In this document: positions 2,533-9,253 of the stretch, piece after piece
Layout: each line of letters opens with the position of its first letter
How positions within the stretch are numbered: the stretch's first letter is position 1
Assembly: GCA_001769215.1 (NCBI GenBank)
Contig: MEOL01000035.1
Location: 62,001 to 126,000 of the forward strand
Direction: 5' to 3'
Source of the DNA: Bacteroidetes bacterium GWF2_41_31
Lineage (GTDB): Bacteria > Bacteroidota > Bacteroidia > Bacteroidales > F082
Length of the DNA stretch: 64,000 nucleotides
Made by a program: the position numbers and the translations under genes
Notes under the pieces: model-generated
What the model was told of the DNA's origin: nothing
Databases searched by the model: none
What the model saw: only the letters and a program-made list of their open reading frames with translations

Positions 2533-3807
2533 ATGAAGAAGAAAGCCATTTTACTCATTATTATACTGACTTCGTTGTCGCTTACCGGAATTATTTTAAC
2601 GCAGGTATATTGGGTGAATACTGCTTTACAACTTAAGGAAGAGCAATTTGACAATAGCGTACGACTTGCTATCAAAAGTGTTGTAAACCAGCTGCTCCAA
2701 AATAAGAATGAACCTGAATTTCAACAAAAGATCAACATGATCTCCTGCCGTAAATCGCGCCTGGATGTGTTCGATTATATTGAACCCCAAATGCTCGATT
2801 CGTTGATGGCTAACGAGCTGAAGTGTATGAAAATCAACAGCACCTATTACTATGCCATCTATAATAAAATCAACAACCGTTTTGCCATCGGCCCTGATGT
2901 ACCATGCGAGGAAGATTTAATAAAATCGCCGTATCAGTTCTCGGTATCAAGCATTTATCGCCCGGGAGATTACACGCTTTCGGTATTTTTTCCTGATAAA
3001 ACAACCATCCTCATCAAAATGGTAAGCACTTGGCTCATCTTTTCAGTTCTTTTTTTGATGATCTTGATATTTAGTTTCATTTATGTCATCATGAAAATCC
3101 TGCAGCAAAAAAAACTTTCGGAGCTCAAAAACGATTTTATCAACAACATGACCCATGAGTTTAAAACTCCTATTACTACGGCATCGCTGGCAGCAGAAAT
3201 GATTCAGCGTGACGAAGTTTTGAGTAATCCTTCCCGCATAAAAAAATATGCCGGTATTATTTTAGATGAAAACAGCCGGTTGCAAAACCAAATCGAACAG
3301 GTGCTCCAGGTAGCAACCCTTGAACAGGAAGGACCCAAGTTTAAAATGAAAAAAACCAACGCACATCACCTGTTGGAATCGGTTATCGAAAGCTTTGAAC
3401 TCAGGATCAAAGAAAACAATGCACAGCTTTCGGTGGATTTGAAAGCGATCAATCCAATGGTGATGGCCGACAAATTTCATTTGCTCAATGTATTTTATAA
3501 CCTGCTCGACAATGCGCTGAAGTATTCACCAAACTATCCCGTCATCGAAATCAGCACCTGGAATCAATCAGATCAATTGGTTATAAGGTTTAAGGACAAT
3601 GGAATTGGTATCAGCCATGAGCATCAAAAAGATATTTTTAAAAACCTGTTTCGTGTGCCTACCGGGAATATACATGAAGTGCACGGCTTCGGACTTGGGC
3701 TGTATTACGTTAAAACTGTGGTAGAACAACACGATGGCCGGATTGATTTAAAAAGTGAGCCGGGCAAGGGTGCTGCCTTCGATATCTATTTACATACAAA
3801 CGACTAA
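2533..3807 (+). CDS. Membrane sensor histidine kinase
   Basis: 424 residues. TM1 is at about residues 5-27, an extracytoplasmic sensor region follows to about residue 160 (with cysteines near 72, 98 and 125), and TM2 is at about 164-190. The dimerisation/phosphoacceptor motif N-N-M-T-H-E-F-K-T-P places the phosphorylated histidine at residue 208. The ATP-binding domain shows the N box (N-L-L-D-N-A-L-K-Y-S), G1 (D-N-G-I-G-I) and G2 (G-F-G-L-G-L-Y-Y-V). It belongs to the HisKA/HATPase_c class I kinases. The response regulator starts 4 bp after its stop, so the two are translated from one mRNA. The signal sensed is unknown. Confidence 0.93.
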   Translation: MKKKAILLIIILTSLSLTGIILTQVYWVNTALQLKEEQFDNSVRLAIKSVVNQLLQNKNEPEFQQKINMISCRKSRLDVFDYIEPQMLDSLMANELKCMKINSTYYYAIYNKINNRFAIGPDVPCEEDLIKSPYQFSVSSIYRPGDYTLSVFFPDKTTILIKMVSTWLIFSVLFLMILIFSFIYVIMKILQQKKLSELKNDFINNMTHEFKTPITTASLAAEMIQRDEVLSNPSRIKKYAGIILDENSRLQNQIEQVLQVATLEQEGPKFKMKKTNAHHLLESVIESFELRIKENNAQLSVDLKAINPMVMADKFHLLNVFYNLLDNALKYSPNYPVIEISTWNQSDQLVIRFKDNGIGISHEHQKDIFKNLFRVPTGNIHEVHGFGLGLYYVKTVVEQHDGRIDLKSEPGKGAAFDIYLHTND

Positions 3808-3811
3808 ACTA

Positions 3812-4525
3812 ATGGAAGAAAAAACACTTCATGCCAACATCCTGTTTGTTGAGGACGATACAAACCTCAGCATGATTTTAAAGGATTATCTGGAGATGAT
3901 CGGATATTCGGTAAGCCATGCCGGCGATGGCGATGAGGGATTGTCGCTCTTTTCTTCAAAGAAATATGATTTGGTCATTCTTGATATCATGATGCCGAAA
4001 AAAGACGGGTTTACACTGGCCAGCGAAATCAGGACAATTAACAGCCAGGTGCCCATTATTTTCCTGACGGCCAAAAACATGAAAGAAGATCGCATCAAAG
4101 GGTTTCAGCATGGCTGCGACGATTATATCACCAAACCGTTTAGCACCGAAGAACTCAGCTTACGCATAAAAGCAATCCTGAAACGATGTAATTTTGCTGA
4201 TTCGCAACCTCAACACGACACCACCACTCATTTTACAATCGGTCATTTTAATTTCGACAGTGTTAACCTGGTACTTAGCTCACCCGATACCGAACGCCGG
4301 CTTACCCGAAAGGAAGCCAACCTACTCAAACTCTTGTGTTTAAACAAAAACACCTTGCTTTCTAGGGAGGTGGCTCTGGAAACGGTCTGGGGCGAAAATG
4401 ATTATTTTATTGGCCGCAGCATGGATGTATTTATCACCAAACTGCGTAAATATTTAAAATCCGATCAAGGTGTAAAAATCATTAATGTACACGGAATCGG
4501 ATTTAAACTGGAAGTGAGCAGCTAA
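3812..4525 (+). CDS. OmpR/PhoB-type response regulator
   Basis: 237 residues from the ATG at 3812, chosen because it follows the kinase stop by 4 bp; a longer in-frame opening at 3755 would overlap the kinase gene. The receiver domain (about 8-120) has the acidic pair E-D-D, the phosphoacceptor aspartate at residue 58 (V-I-L-D-I-M-M-P), and the conserved T (F-L-T-A-K) and K (I-T-K-P-F). The C-terminal winged-helix DNA-binding domain (about 140-235) contains L-T-R-K-E-A-N-L-L-K-L-L and S-M-D-V-F-I-T-K-L-R-K-Y-L, typical of Trans_reg_C. It is the cognate partner of the kinase just upstream. Confidence 0.93.
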   Translation: MEEKTLHANILFVEDDTNLSMILKDYLEMIGYSVSHAGDGDEGLSLFSSKKYDLVILDIMMPKKDGFTLASEIRTINSQVPIIFLTAKNMKEDRIKGFQHGCDDYITKPFSTEELSLRIKAILKRCNFADSQPQHDTTTHFTIGHFNFDSVNLVLSSPDTERRLTRKEANLLKLLCLNKNTLLSREVALETVWGENDYFIGRSMDVFITKLRKYLKSDQGVKIINVHGIGFKLEVSS

Positions 4526-6223: not shown

Positions 6224-6994
6224 CTAAAATTGTTCTTTCCTTTCCACCGCATATCCCAGAAATAGTTTCTGAGCCATCATCTCCTGAACGAATGCTATCA
6301 AGTTGGTTAATAACGGATGCTGATCCGATAATGCGAACTGAAGTTTAAGCCCGGCAGCTATGTCAGACAAGGAAAGTTGTTCATGGGCAATATTTTCAAA
6401 AGTAAAAGTGTCAAGGGCCGACAGGTCGGCAAAAAGTACTTCTCTGGTTTCAGGGTGCCGATACACCATCATAAAATAATCTCCGGGATGGTTTTTAGCT
6501 TCCTCCACAGCATATAAATGAACCGGGTAACGGAGCGGAATCAGGCGGTATTCCGGATTCACAACAATCGTCCCGTTCCTGATATCTCCCTGAAGAGTAA
6601 ATGGTTCTGCTTCGATGTCTGGCATTGTATATACTTCAATTTCAATCCATTCAAAATAAAGCAGATCATTTAACCAGGGCTTGTTCCACAAAGTGGCGTA
6701 ATCTTTTTCTTTCACGAAAGTGACAAATTCAGCCGGCAACTTCCAGATTTGGGTTGTCTTGGCATCGTGATTGGCAAAAAACAGATCAATCAGTTCATTC
6801 CATTCTTCATCCGGCAATACCTGACGTGAAATCGGGAAAGCCTGCACCATGGTATTGTTGATGTTGTTCCTGAGCAGCCTGCGGTATTGACGCAATCCTT
6901 CTTCTGTAGCGCCCGGAATAAAGGTATCATTTCCGGTCCGTCCGAAGCGGGACAAATCCTGCTCAATTTTATAAGTATCAGGCTGGTACAACAT
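6224..6994 (-). CDS. hvfC: DUF2063 protein, HvfC/BufC-type partner of the RiPP-modifying enzyme
   Basis: 256 residues. The N-terminal helical domain (about 20-130) has the DUF2063 pattern: R-Q-Y-R-R-L-L-R-N-N, then A-F-P-I-S-R-Q-V-L and L-N-D-L-L-Y-F-E-W-I-E-I-E. Proteins of this type form a heterodimer with DUF692 enzymes and help bind the substrate peptide. Its start overlaps the end of the DUF692 gene by 17 bp, which implies coupled translation. A gene for an EGKCG-motif peptide lies two genes upstream. Assignment as HvfC rather than MbnC follows from that peptide and from the absence of a methanobactin-like precursor. Confidence 0.88.
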   Translation of the reverse strand: MLYQPDTYKIEQDLSRFGRTGNDTFIPGATEEGLRQYRRLLRNNINNTMVQAFPISRQVLPDEEWNELIDLFFANHDAKTTQIWKLPAEFVTFVKEKDYATLWNKPWLNDLLYFEWIEIEVYTMPDIEAEPFTLQGDIRNGTIVVNPEYRLIPLRYPVHLYAVEEAKNHPGDYFMMVYRHPETREVLFADLSALDTFTFENIAHEQLSLSDIAAGLKLQFALSDQHPLLTNLIAFVQEMMAQKLFLGYAVERKEQF

Positions 6995-7826
6995 CTTTTA
7001 TCCAGTATTTATTGACTATTGAACGTAGTTGATTCATTTCGTGGTGGAGCATCCTGATTTCAGGAAAGTTAAAATCCCTTTCGAGCAAAACCGGAACGGG
7101 GTTAAGTTTTGCCACCGTGTAGTCAAACAGATCGTAAACAGGATCAATAATGGCTTCACCATGGGTATCGACAATCAGCGTTGGGGAAACCTGCTCATGA
7201 CCAGCCATGTGAATATAAGCCACCCGATCGAGCGGCATGCCTGAAATAAATTCGTATGGATCATAATGGTGGTTGAAAGCATTGACATATACATTGTTTA
7301 CATCCAGCAAGAGGTTGCATCCCGATTGCGAAACAATTTGGTTAATGAATTCAGATTCGGTCATTTGAGCGGCCACCGGCGTGTAGTACGAAACATTTTC
7401 GATGGCAATAGGCATTTCCAAAAAATCCTGAACCTGCTTTATGCGGGCTACCACATGCTTCACGCTGTCGTCCCGAAAAGGAATGGGCAACAAGTCGTAC
7501 AAGTGCGCATTATCCATCTTTGCAAACGATAAATGCTCGGAATAAACCCTGACATCATGTTCTGCAATAAAATTCTTTACCTGCCGGAGAAAAGCAAGAT
7601 CCAGTTCATCCGGACTACCAATGGACAATGAAAGCCCATGCAGAAAAACCGGAAAACGGTGGCTGACCTCCTTAAACTGAGCGCCCCAATAACCTCCCAT
7701 ATTGATCCAGTTTTCGGGTGCCACCTCAACAAAGTCGGGGTTTATTTCATTGGTCTTCAGGAATGCATCCGCGATGTCGCGTCTGAATCCCATGCCGATG
7801 TTACTTGTGTTTTTCCGTAGGTTCAT
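6978..7826 (-). CDS. hvfB: DUF692 multinuclear iron enzyme, HvfB/BufB-type peptide-modifying oxygenase
   Basis: 282 residues, a TIM-barrel DUF692 (MbnB-like) protein. Conserved blocks are all present: G-M-G-F-R, V-A-P-E-N-W, H-G-L-S-L-S-I-G, S-E-H-L-S, I-E-N-V-S, L-L-D-V-N-N-V-Y-V-N, H-M-A-G-H, D-T-H-G and L-L-E-R-D; several of these supply the His/Asp/Glu iron ligands. Known family members use a two- or three-iron centre and O2 to convert peptide cysteines into oxazolone-thioamide groups (MbnB, HvfB). The substrate here is presumably the EGKCG-repeat peptide encoded 75 bp upstream. Expected location is the cytosol, before export of the peptide. Confidence 0.92.
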   Translation of the reverse strand: MNLRKNTSNIGMGFRRDIADAFLKTNEINPDFVEVAPENWINMGGYWGAQFKEVSHRFPVFLHGLSLSIGSPDELDLAFLRQVKNFIAEHDVRVYSEHLSFAKMDNAHLYDLLPIPFRDDSVKHVVARIKQVQDFLEMPIAIENVSYYTPVAAQMTESEFINQIVSQSGCNLLLDVNNVYVNAFNHHYDPYEFISGMPLDRVAYIHMAGHEQVSPTLIVDTHGEAIIDPVYDLFDYTVAKLNPVPVLLERDFNFPEIRMLHHEMNQLRSIVNKYWIKDVVPA

Positions 7827-7841
7827 GTGATTAAAAATTCA

Positions 7842-7880
7842 CAATCGAATTGGCAGCACTTGAACCTGCCAATTCGATTG
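7842..7880 (-). promoter_or_regulatory. Attenuator-like hairpin between precursor peptide and modifying enzymes
   Basis: CAATCGAATTGGCAG (7842-7856) and its exact complement (7866-7880) form a 15-bp stem with a 9-nt loop. On the minus strand it is followed by TGAATTTTTAA, a weak U-tract. It lies between the stop of the EGKCG peptide gene (7901) and the DUF692 start (7826). A leaky terminator here would give more precursor than enzyme transcript. Confidence 0.7.
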
Positions 7881-7900
7881 TTTGATGAAAAGTGATGTGA

Positions 7901-8308
7901 TTAGGAAACGCCACATTTACCTTCACCACATTTGGCTTCGGTAGTTTTGGTGGTATCTTCCTTCTTTTCGGTTTTGGTTTCGGTGGTTTTTGCGGCCTTG
8001 CCTTCACCGCACTTTCCTTCACCACACTTAGCTTCTATAGCCTTCCCCTCTTTCTTTTCTACTTTCGCTTCCTTTTTTGTTTCCTTTTTTGTTTCCTCTG
8101 GTTTGGCTTCACCACATTTCATTTCAAAAACATTTAAAGGCGAAAAGTTAATATTCAGATCGATGATCTGGCCGCGAAGTTCAGCTCCATTGCCAAGCAC
8201 CTGGCTGGTAGAAGGACGTGCATTTAAATTTGTTCCTGCAAATGTCACCAAAGCTCCTGCAAGTAAACTGCTGGCAACGATACTGGTAGTTTTCAGTCTT
8301 TTTTCCAT
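7901..8308 (-). CDS. hvfA: EGKCG-repeat precursor peptide, HvfA/bufferin-like copper-binding RiPP
   Basis: 135 residues. A signal peptide spans about 1-30 (S-I-V-A-S-S-L-L-A-G-A-L, then N-A-R-P). The mature C-terminal half is Lys/Glu/Thr-rich low complexity with cysteines at 65, 95, 100, 127 and 132, each in an E-x-K-C-G context: EMKCG, EAKCG, EGKCG, EAKCG, EGKCG. EGKCG is the motif that HvfB/HvfC convert to oxazolone-thioamide groups in the Haemophilus peptide HvfA, giving copper-binding products. It is followed by the DUF692 and DUF2063 genes and preceded by sigma and anti-sigma genes on the same strand. Five modification sites are predicted; the first (EMKCG) is the least canonical. Confidence 0.85.
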   Translation of the reverse strand: MEKRLKTTSIVASSLLAGALVTFAGTNLNARPSTSQVLGNGAELRGQIIDLNINFSPLNVFEMKCGEAKPEETKKETKKEAKVEKKEGKAIEAKCGEGKCGEGKAAKTTETKTEKKEDTTKTTEAKCGEGKCGVS

Positions 8309-8399
8309 GATATTAGTAATTTAGTAAGATAAAATTGTATCACCCATTTTGACGTGGATCTATCCACATCCTTACACCATTACGAAAGAAAAAAACAAA

Positions 8400-8702
8400 T
8401 TACGGTTTATTCAGCTGTTTTTCAACGACTTCGGCGAGTCGCATTTTTTGATCCTCTGTCAGTTTCCAGGTCAGGTTTTTGGCCTCAACGGAACCCATAT
8501 GGGCAAGATGTGAATTGATTATGTGCGATTGCTTTAGATAGTCCCGACAGAATTCGCAGACCATCAAATGCATTTTTAACTGCGTCCATTTGATGCAGGA
8601 TAATTTTACAAAACCACTTTGATCCATCAACAAAGAAGCACCATCACAGGTAAGCATGAGTTTATTCAGACCTTTTATCAATGTTGTTTTCATTCCACTC
8701 AT
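8400..8702 (-). CDS. Small zinc-finger-type anti-sigma factor
   Basis: 100 residues from the ATG at 8702, which overlaps the sigma factor stop as ATGA; longer in-frame starts (8711, 8726) exist but lie inside the sigma gene. The centre has C-x-K-W-T-Q-L-K-x-H-L-x-V-C-E-F-C, a His/Cys zinc-binding pattern like ZAS-type cytosolic anti-sigma factors. No membrane segment is present, so it would act in the cytosol and could sense metal or oxidative stress through its cysteines. It is co-transcribed with its sigma factor and lies 92 bp before the EGKCG peptide gene. Confidence 0.78.
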   Translation of the reverse strand: MSGMKTTLIKGLNKLMLTCDGASLLMDQSGFVKLSCIKWTQLKMHLMVCEFCRDYLKQSHIINSHLAHMGSVEAKNLTWKLTEDQKMRLAEVVEKQLNKP

Positions 8703-9253
8703 TTCAACCATCCCTTTTCTACACATTCACGTAATTTCAATCGGGTCCTGTGAATGATGATCCACAAATTTGACGCAGAACATCCCAATTCCTTACAAAT
8801 CTCATCACTTTCCATTTCTTCTATAAATCTGAGCACGAAAATGGCCCTCCAATTTTCCGGTAAGTGATCCAAACAAACTTTCAACACTCCCATAAACTCT
8901 TCCTGATTCAGGTGTTCATCTGCCGTGGGTGACCAGGGTTTTGGACTTCGTTCTCTTAACCAACGCCCCTGAAAGGGTCCCTCCTTAATAAAAGGAGAAG
9001 AAAATGAATCCTCAGAAGAATCAGATTTTGTTGTTTGCTTGCGATAAAAATCGATGACCTTGCGTTTTAAAATAGCCGTTAACCAGGTACGCTCCGAACT
9101 TTCGCCCCGAAAATGCTGTCGGGATTTGAGTGCAGATAAAAAACATTCCTGCACCAAATCTTCGGCAACCTGACGATAACGAACACGTGAATAAGCAAAA
9201 TTAAATAGAAAATCCCCATGGTTTTCAACCCAATTTTCAGGAGTTAATTCCAT
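8699..9253 (-). CDS. ECF sigma factor (sigma-70 family)
   Basis: 184 residues. Region 2 (about 10-75) has D-L-V-Q-E-C-F-L-S-A-L and F-R-G-E-S-S-E-R-T-W-L; region 4 (about 125-178) has L-P-E-N-W-R-A-I-F-V-L-R and a helix-turn-helix around E-E-M-E-S-D-E-I-C-K-E-L-G-C-S. The linker (about 80-115) is Ser/Pro/Gly-rich. ECF factors of this group typically control one local operon together with a small anti-sigma factor. The same-strand order sigma, anti-sigma, precursor peptide, DUF692, DUF2063 strongly suggests that it controls this RiPP operon, as ECF factors do for bufferin loci in other phyla. Confidence 0.92.
   Translation of the reverse strand: MELTPENWVENHGDFLFNFAYSRVRYRQVAEDLVQECFLSALKSRQHFRGESSERTWLTAILKRKVIDFYRKQTTKSDSSEDSFSSPFIKEGPFQGRWLRERSPKPWSPTADEHLNQEEFMGVLKVCLDHLPENWRAIFVLRFIEEMESDEICKELGCSASNLWIIIHRTRLKLRECVEKGWLK

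Follow-up and report, generated by a model that had tools for sequence, protein, structure and literature searches.

A stretch of 64,000 nucleotides from the genome of Bacteroidetes bacterium GWF2_41_31 (contig MEOL01000035.1, positions 62,001 to 126,000; hereafter the window) carries, at positions 6224-9253, five open reading frames (ORFs) that all lie on the minus strand in the order sigma factor, anti-sigma factor, peptide, DUF692 protein and DUF2063 protein. The ORF calls and the Pfam and NCBIfam matches bear out this order, which had been proposed in a first-pass annotation made from the sequence alone. The reading of the five genes as an HvfABC-type operon (captophorin, Buf_EGKCG/oxazolin) with its own extracytoplasmic function (ECF) sigma factor and anti-sigma factor is well supported, captophorins being one group's name for the HvfABC kind (PMC13097082). 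Two predicted promoters accompany the genes, one inside the sigma gene (P1) and one before the peptide gene (P2). From the upstream end, the features are as follows:

8699-9253, minus strand: ECF sigma factor gene, TIGR02943-like (184 amino acids)
8772-8797, minus strand: P1, predicted anti-sigma promoter TGTAAGGAATTGGGATGTTCTGCGTC, within sigma codons 153-161 (C-K-E-L-G-C-S-A-S)
8400-8726, minus strand: zinc-binding anti-sigma (ZAS) gene (108 amino acids), overlapping the sigma gene, with C27, H53, C57 and C60
8351-8376, minus strand: P2, predicted hvfABC promoter TGTAAGGATGTGGATAGATCCACGTC, TGTAAGG-N15-CGTC
7901-8308, minus strand: hvfA-like precursor gene (135 amino acids), with five E-x-K-C-G sites and an LGxGxxVR-type segment after the signal peptide
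6978-7826, minus strand: hvfB-like gene for a multinuclear non-haem iron-dependent oxidative enzyme (MNIO; DUF692) (282 amino acids)
6224-6994, minus strand: gene for the hvfC-like partner protein (DUF2063) (256 amino acids)

The sigma factor matches Pfam Sigma70_r2 (62.2 bits) and Sigma70_r4_2 (43.5 bits), both over cut-off, while its top NCBIfam match, TIGR02943, lies under cut-off (148.4 bits; cut-off 162.2). The MNIO, encoded by the single such gene detected in the genome (4.5 Mb assembly in 52 contigs, 97.6% complete), matches Pfam MbnB_TglH_ChrH over cut-off (336 bits) and passes the NCBIfam HvfB model NF003818 (385.7 bits; cut-off 360). Pfam models PF09836 (51.7 bits; cut-off 27.2) and PF22106 (NGO1945_C; 34.2 bits; cut-off 27) are matched by the DUF2063 protein, and the peptide passes KCGExKCG_twice, the HvfA repeat-domain model NF050137 (27.0 bits; cut-off 19.5). 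The earlier assignment to the HvfABC type thus holds on the HvfB, repeat-domain and DUF2063 models. On the other hand, the DUF2063 protein does not reach the NCBIfam HvfC model NF050145 (123.9 against 142), nor the peptide the full-length HvfA model NF050188 (21.9 against 95). For the anti-sigma factor and the peptide, no Pfam model was over cut-off.

The arrangement recurs in other genomes. When one genome per species was scanned with the MNIO sequence, 84,980 species in all, 135 relatives emerged; the best 80 were kept, a selection that leans to close relatives. This search for similar arrangements, which the first-pass annotation had suggested, placed a KCG-repeat peptide gene near the MNIO gene in 77 of the 80 loci. 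A co-directional sigma gene accompanies the peptide gene in 55 of the 73 loci (window included) whose sequence reaches 1.4 kb or more upstream of that gene; in one of the 55, L004, it is a broken copy. Such conservation of the peptide and sigma genes across loci argues that the arrangement is not a matter of chance.

Both predicted promoters consist of the same element, TGTAAGG-N15-CGTC, which we take to be of the ECF type. Its relaxed form (TGTAA-N17-CG[TA][ACT]) is matched by 54 of 78 regions upstream of precursor genes, whereas 50 first-order Markov resamples gave a mean of 0.36 and a maximum of 2. The strict form (TGTAAGG-N15-CG[TA]C) is in 37 of the 78, against none in the resamples; changing the spacer length by one or two bases in either direction leaves 0 or 1 matched regions. 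P2 is present in 46 of the 55 loci with a sigma gene and in 3 of the 18 without (Fisher p 4.5e-7, uncorrected for descent); two of these three (L002 and L003) are close relatives of the window that have lost the sigma factor, and the broken L004 is counted among the 55. At the sequence level, these promoter elements uphold the proposed control of the operon by its sigma factor. The P2 spacing is also seen in three of five further stretches: an Acinetobacter and a Moraxella plasmid have it ahead of their peptide genes, and a Pseudomonas aeruginosa plasmid has it at the equivalent position. It was not found in the gonococcal or the Pseudoalteromonas stretch.

P1 lies within the Sigma70_r4_2 match, in codons that presumably encode the helix-turn-helix of the sigma factor, judging from the usual helix positions in region 4. 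Measured from the end of its -10 element, the ATG of the longest anti-sigma ORF lies 45 nt downstream and an inner ATG (8693), a likely start, 78 nt downstream; from this position P1 is predicted to drive the anti-sigma gene and so to make the switch self-limiting. Because P2 occurs with sigma genes, the same sigma factor would be expected to read P1. Relaxed P1 (TGTAA) is found in 48 of 56 hvf-linked sigma genes, always in the same codon register, against 3.8 expected when synonymous codons are resampled from the usage of each locus's own genes, and the strict form in 47 against 1.2; the broken L004 is left out of these counts. All six Ignavibacteria-labelled loci among the 56 (L030, L046, L052, L058, L060 and L062) have P1. 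When the two promoters are cross-tabulated over 55 co-directional loci, leaving out the divergent sigma gene of L077, 44 loci have both, 5 have P1 alone, 3 have P2 alone and 3 have neither.

The three strongest of 185 codon columns for synonymous bias are all P1 codons (z 15.3, 14.3 and 10.2), and the P1 Lys codon has z 4.7. The P1 Cys is TGT in 55 of 55 cases, compared with 81 of 157 elsewhere in these sigma genes, and the P1 Lys is AAG in 53 of 53 (elsewhere 273 of 1001). Similarly, an NCG codon encodes the residue before the P1 Ser in 49 of 55 (elsewhere 318 of 2153 Ser, Pro, Thr and Ala codons), and the P1 Ser itself is TCN in 52 of 52 (elsewhere 477 of 752). These codons might instead be kept for RNA structure, for translation of the overlapping anti-sigma gene, or through protein-level and codon preferences, with P1 being no promoter at all. 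The anti-sigma gene does overlap or abut the end of the sigma gene, which makes local RNA constraints possible; codon columns outside P1 are biased too, the top one at z 6.5 (mean 1.25, standard deviation 2.2), and the protein sequence alone gives a sigma gene a 0-35% chance of the motif. The loci also share descent, and their expected counts therefore overstate significance. However, the constrained bases are those of a motif found independently before hvfA with the same 15-base spacing, the spacer columns of P1 reach only z -0.4 to 2.7, and a paralogous sigma factor on contig C17 of the same genome has TGTCAGG both inside its gene and before neighbouring genes. We regard the explanation without a promoter as unlikely. 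It is fairly likely that, in a sigma family of Bacteroidota and Ignavibacteria, the helix-turn-helix codons (C-K-E-x5-[S/A/T/P]-S) double as the -35 and -10 elements read by that same helix-turn-helix. The promoter would then dictate residues of the DNA-binding domain (NCG codons before Ser; K or Q according to TGTAAGG or TGTCAGG), and switch and brake would evolve as one sequence.

A draw from the phylum with the C17 paralog as query gave a P1-type element in 17 of 28 sigma genes against 1.67 expected, here with the pattern TGT[AC]A and a null built from the codon usage of the sigma gene and part of the first set. The draw includes the query itself and hvf-linked loci; L170 and L179 had been dropped from its 30 members as at least 80% identical to the first set. 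Phylum draw, class draw and first set were then pooled, and the 115 sigmas were thinned to 63 at 70% identity; the internal element is present in 45 of these against 4.84 expected from synonymous codon choice (same pattern, with a null from the sigma gene and all sigmas). The occurrence of the element in the phylum and class samples indicates that P1 is a property of the sigma family and not only of hvf operons. Several counts nevertheless weigh against the internal promoter. The element is absent from 18 of the 63 dereplicated sigmas and was not found in the Proteobacterial sigma genes L157, L158, L159 and L161 (0 of 4). A ZAS-like ORF follows 43 of the 45 sigma genes with P1 but also 16 of the 18 that lack it; an anti-sigma gene thus does not depend on the presence of P1. 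The motif also stands upstream of 4 of the 18 P1-less and 2 of the 45 P1-bearing sigma genes of the thinned set, and of 4 of 56 hvf-linked sigma genes when a wider pattern and reach are allowed. With the relaxed element found upstream of 1 of 58 sigma genes (and the 4 of 56 just given), self-activation of the sigma factor as a rule was rejected. Because the element is missing there, the sigma factor would be made at a low, sigma-independent level. In four P1-less members of the family (L183, L187, L189 and L206) this motif precedes the sigma gene, which suggests a switch between self-activating and self-limiting wiring.

In the genome of the window, exact TGTAAGG-N15-CGWC occurs at three sites, namely P2, P1 and an antisense copy within an ORF of contig C37. 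A wide regulon was rejected, given these three sites and 48 matches with at most one mismatch against 132 for the reversed pattern (the surroundings of 30 of the 48 were inspected). Ten entries in the one-mismatch list are TGTCAGG-N15-CGWC sites, and five of them fall within about 12 kb on C17, where the paralogous sigma factor (41% identity; L238, 171500-187500) is encoded with its own ZAS-motif protein. Three of the five stand before genes, one at a gene end just before the next gene, and one inside the sigma gene, as TGTCAGG-N15-CGAC at the same codons as P1. The neighbouring genes encode a cytochrome P460-like protein, DUF6789, a peroxiredoxin, DoxX, a thioredoxin-like protein, a rhodanese, an oxidoreductase and a histidine methyltransferase, a content that resembles that of an oxidative-stress regulon. 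In two same-family relatives (L236 and L237), the hvfA promoter carries TGTCAGG and the linked sigma factor resembles the C17 branch (F-W-Q); P1 was not found in either sigma gene. L044 is mixed, with TGTCAGG inside the sigma gene and TGTAAGG before hvfA.

The Cys/His (ZAS) character claimed for the anti-sigma factor is supported by its residue spacing. C27, H53, C57 and C60 are spaced identically to C4/H30/C34/C37 of MseR and C11/H37/C41/C44 of RsrA (PMC2893595), and the alignment columns of these four residues are invariant in 54 of 54 and 48 of 48 sequences. No membrane segment is visible on inspection, and the predicted model has five helices (predicted local distance difference test score, pLDDT, 84). 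NF052368 (antisigmaE) is matched by 48 of 48 anti-sigmas at E values up to 0.01, the window protein scoring 35.4 bits against a cut-off of 50. On the other side, the exact C-x25-H-x3-C-x2-C spacing is kept in 47 of the 54 anti-sigmas, and neither fold search nor profile gave a significant PDB match (no RsrA or ChrR chain was among the PDB results, an absence that excludes nothing). As to the signal that the ZAS protein would sense, oxidants left sigma-E expression unchanged in Neisseria (PMC2893595).

Close relatives of the window offer a further view of the sigma factor. hvfB is present in four of the five genomes of the genus searched, and the three besides that of the window appear to be L002-L004 (the identities are the same). 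None of these three has an intact sigma orthologue: L002 and L003 share a deletion running from about codon 6 of the sigma gene into the anti-sigma gene, and L004 has a different deletion plus an early stop, making at least two distinct losses. P2 is retained in all three, and hvfABC is under purifying selection, with ratios of non-synonymous to synonymous substitution (dN/dS) of 0.02-0.26 over six pairs and three genes (some counts small) and of 0.02-0.21 between the three sigma-less relatives. The operon can thus persist without the sigma factor, which is not strictly needed there. The P2 spacer also contains a GTGGAT/ATCCAC inverted repeat, kept in L002-L004, that is perhaps an operator for another regulator. 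These deletions and the continued selection on hvfABC, together with the absence of an adjacent co-directional sigma gene from 18 of 73 loci and a spacer repeat that another regulator could use, would fit a situation in which this lineage can do without the linked sigma and expresses hvfABC chiefly through some other factor. This is improbable to our minds: P2 is concentrated in sigma-bearing loci, as counted above, and the sigma and anti-sigma genes are both intact in the window.

The peptide has, judged by eye, a signal peptide (MEKRLK, a hydrophobic stretch and LNA-R), followed by the sites EMKCG (C65), EAKCG (C95), EGKCG (C100), EAKCG (C127) and EGKCG (C132). G39, R45 and C65 are invariant in 78 precursors, window included. 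G39 and R45 belong to a segment that follows the signal peptide, [LM]-G-[STN]-[GA]-x-x-[VLI]-R; C65 belongs to a lone first [ED]-x-x-C-[GA] site, the Lys of which is kept in 42 of the 78. The mixture of EAKCG, EGKCG and EMKCG sites, which the first-pass annotation had considered unusual, does not stand as an unusual trait: the fontiphorin precursor holds EAKCGEGKCG, and at positions 1 and 2 of the repeat FonBC accepted most substitutions other than Pro (PMC13097082). The oxazolone-thioamide chemistry that it had named is likewise superseded, the EGKCG modification having been reassigned to 5-thiooxazole (PMC13097082, PMC13419390) with the loss of 4 Da per Cys unchanged.

All 81 of 81 MNIO sequences have H63, H98, E143, D175, N177, N178, H206, H210, D220, H222 and E249 (the enzyme was also aligned to 3BWW), and on our reading of the motifs these residues include the iron ligands. 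N175, D242 and H244 are required in HvfB (PMC13419390), and we read them as matching the N-N and D-x-H of the window enzyme. FonBC modified a two-repeat but not a one-repeat substrate (PMC13097082), and the window enzyme could accordingly either modify or skip C65; the total mass shift would be about -20 Da in the first case, with all five Cys modified, or -16 Da in the second. The alternative in which the MNIO carries out some other modification, or passes over the lone EMKCG, draws on the same one-repeat result, on the shortfalls against the HvfC and full-length HvfA models and on the many reactions that MNIO enzymes catalyse as a class (PMC13419390). With the HvfB model over cut-off and C65 invariant in 78 of 78 precursors, we hold it to be distinctly unlikely.

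Copper is the favoured ligand, as modified EGKCG peptides bind Cu(I) by native mass spectrometry (PMC13097082). The same source names copper, gold and oxidative stress as inducers and treats metal specificity as undecided, and the sigma regulons of Neisseria and Haemophilus include msrAB (PMC2893595 for Neisseria), with H. influenzae RpoE2 responding to hypochlorous acid (HOCl). A peptide that handles another metal or an oxidant such as HOCl, and not copper, is accordingly a possible but doubtful alternative, against which the native mass spectra speak.

The operon resembles the Neisseria rpoE operon (NMB2140-NMB2145, with sigma-E, MseR and the gonophorin genes), in which ECF, ZAS and hvf genes and DoxX form one operon (PMC2893595). 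Shared are the ECF sigma factor, a ZAS protein with the same Cys/His spacing, an EGKCG peptide, DUF692 and DUF2063; from the gene order in the gonococcal locus L159 we infer that NMB2143 is the peptide. The Neisseria operon has DoxX and is autoregulated, whereas the window lacks both DoxX and an element before the sigma gene. The gonococcal sigma gene in turn lacks P1, and the relaxed motif was not seen before the gonococcal peptide gene, whereas the window has both. P. aeruginosa plasmid pPALO11 (CP075839.1) has sigma factor, zf-HC2, peptide, DUF692 and DUF2063 in the order of the window, plus DoxX; its sigma gene is without P1, and TGTAA-N17-CGTC precedes the gene that takes the place of the peptide (annotated as hypothetical and not flagged by the KCG count). 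Given the Neisseria operon and this plasmid, a sigma/anti-sigma pair belonging to an hvf operon is not new in itself. The H. influenzae hvf (oxazolin) operon and FonABC also share HvfABC proteins and E-x-K-C-G repeats with the window, and FonA its mixed EAKCG/EGKCG sites; in H. influenzae the sigma gene (RpoE2/HrsE) lies near msrAB, apart from hvf. Precursors of Moraxella, Acinetobacter and the gonococcus differ in lacking the [LM]-G-[STN]-[GA]-x-x-[VLI]-R segment and the lone first E-x-x-C-G of Bacteroidota.

For the internal promoter, the likeness is with Corynebacterium glutamicum, in which SigH-dependent PrshA inside sigH drives the ZAS gene rshA, with starts 62 and 66 nt before rshA located by Northern blot and primer extension, and sigH is transcribed from housekeeping promoters (PMC3489674). 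There too a promoter of the sigma factor's own type lies within the sigma gene, before the anti-sigma gene, and it is described as the main difference of C. glutamicum from S. coelicolor and M. tuberculosis; its -35 and -10 sequences differ from those of the window, and codon-level conservation was not found in the accessible text (PMC3489674). Two other systems, Streptomyces sigma-E (PMC10771440) and Caulobacter sigV (PMC13171946; promoter in the preceding gene), were set aside as having, in the parts available, no bearing on an internal promoter. In the open-licence literature, we found no earlier report of such a promoter besides C. glutamicum, which is a weak negative, and none of hvf operon regulation in Bacteroidota or of a promoter within helix-turn-helix codons; the string 'bacteroid' is absent from the main text, figures aside, of PMC12452194 and PMC13097082. 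The operon is another HvfABC member, and the proposed promoter architecture is what is new.

The first-pass annotation had also drawn attention to a missing DoxX gene. DoxX is indeed not adjacent in the window, there being no same-strand gene after hvfC near 6224, and four DoxX matches lie elsewhere in the genome, the closest within the second ECF/ZAS gene group. Its absence is no special feature, however: across the 80 relatives DoxX is adjacent in 45, absent in 26 and not decidable in 9, hence missing from 26 of 71 decidable loci. The fon cluster consists of MNIO, PME1 and precursor only, DoxX being frequent but not essential (PMC13097082).

In a phylum sample, PF05114 was over cut-off in 27 of 392 genomes. 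The sample added 29 loci (L128-L156), for most of which some 1.5 kb of flanking sequence was covered on either side, and 6 of them had a KCG-repeat peptide gene. Class and phylum relatives L128-L139 and L142 encode a DUF692 enzyme of another branch, possibly with another product; a KCG-repeat peptide and a DUF2063 gene were not detected within about 1.5 kb of it. In L063, the precursor gene (6996-7406) stands after DUF2063 and not before DUF692. The window itself encodes, at 2086-2379 on the minus strand, a small Cys/Lys-rich protein that is probably secreted; a histidine kinase/response regulator pair lies nearby, at 2533-4525. The small protein has no family match over cut-off and could be another metal-binding peptide.

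Taken as a whole, the locus quite probably encodes a secreted, Cys-modified metal-binding peptide under a dedicated ECF sigma factor that is held by a ZAS protein and fires P2 (hvfABC) and P1 (anti-sigma). The cytoplasmic ZAS anti-sigma would hold the sigma factor at rest until a metal or oxidant disturbs its zinc/thiol site and releases it. Free sigma would then fire P2, yielding the peptide and its enzymes, and P1, yielding more anti-sigma; since P1 makes anti-sigma, the response would limit and end itself. Before export, the cysteines of the E-x-K-C-G sites are probably converted by HvfB and HvfC to 5-thiooxazoles; once in the periplasm, the peptide would most likely capture surplus copper.

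These results extend a metal-buffering ribosomally synthesized and post-translationally modified peptide (RiPP), described in the literature consulted mostly from Pseudomonadota, to Bacteroidota and Ignavibacteria, where the precursor has a conserved segment of its own. The regulatory part weighs more than the peptide operon. If the proposed architecture is true, the coding sequence for the DNA-binding domain of the sigma factor and the target site of that domain coincide, so that protein and promoter evolution would be linked and negative feedback built in. Such a promoter motif would further allow the regulons of these sigma factors to be predicted in uncultured genomes.

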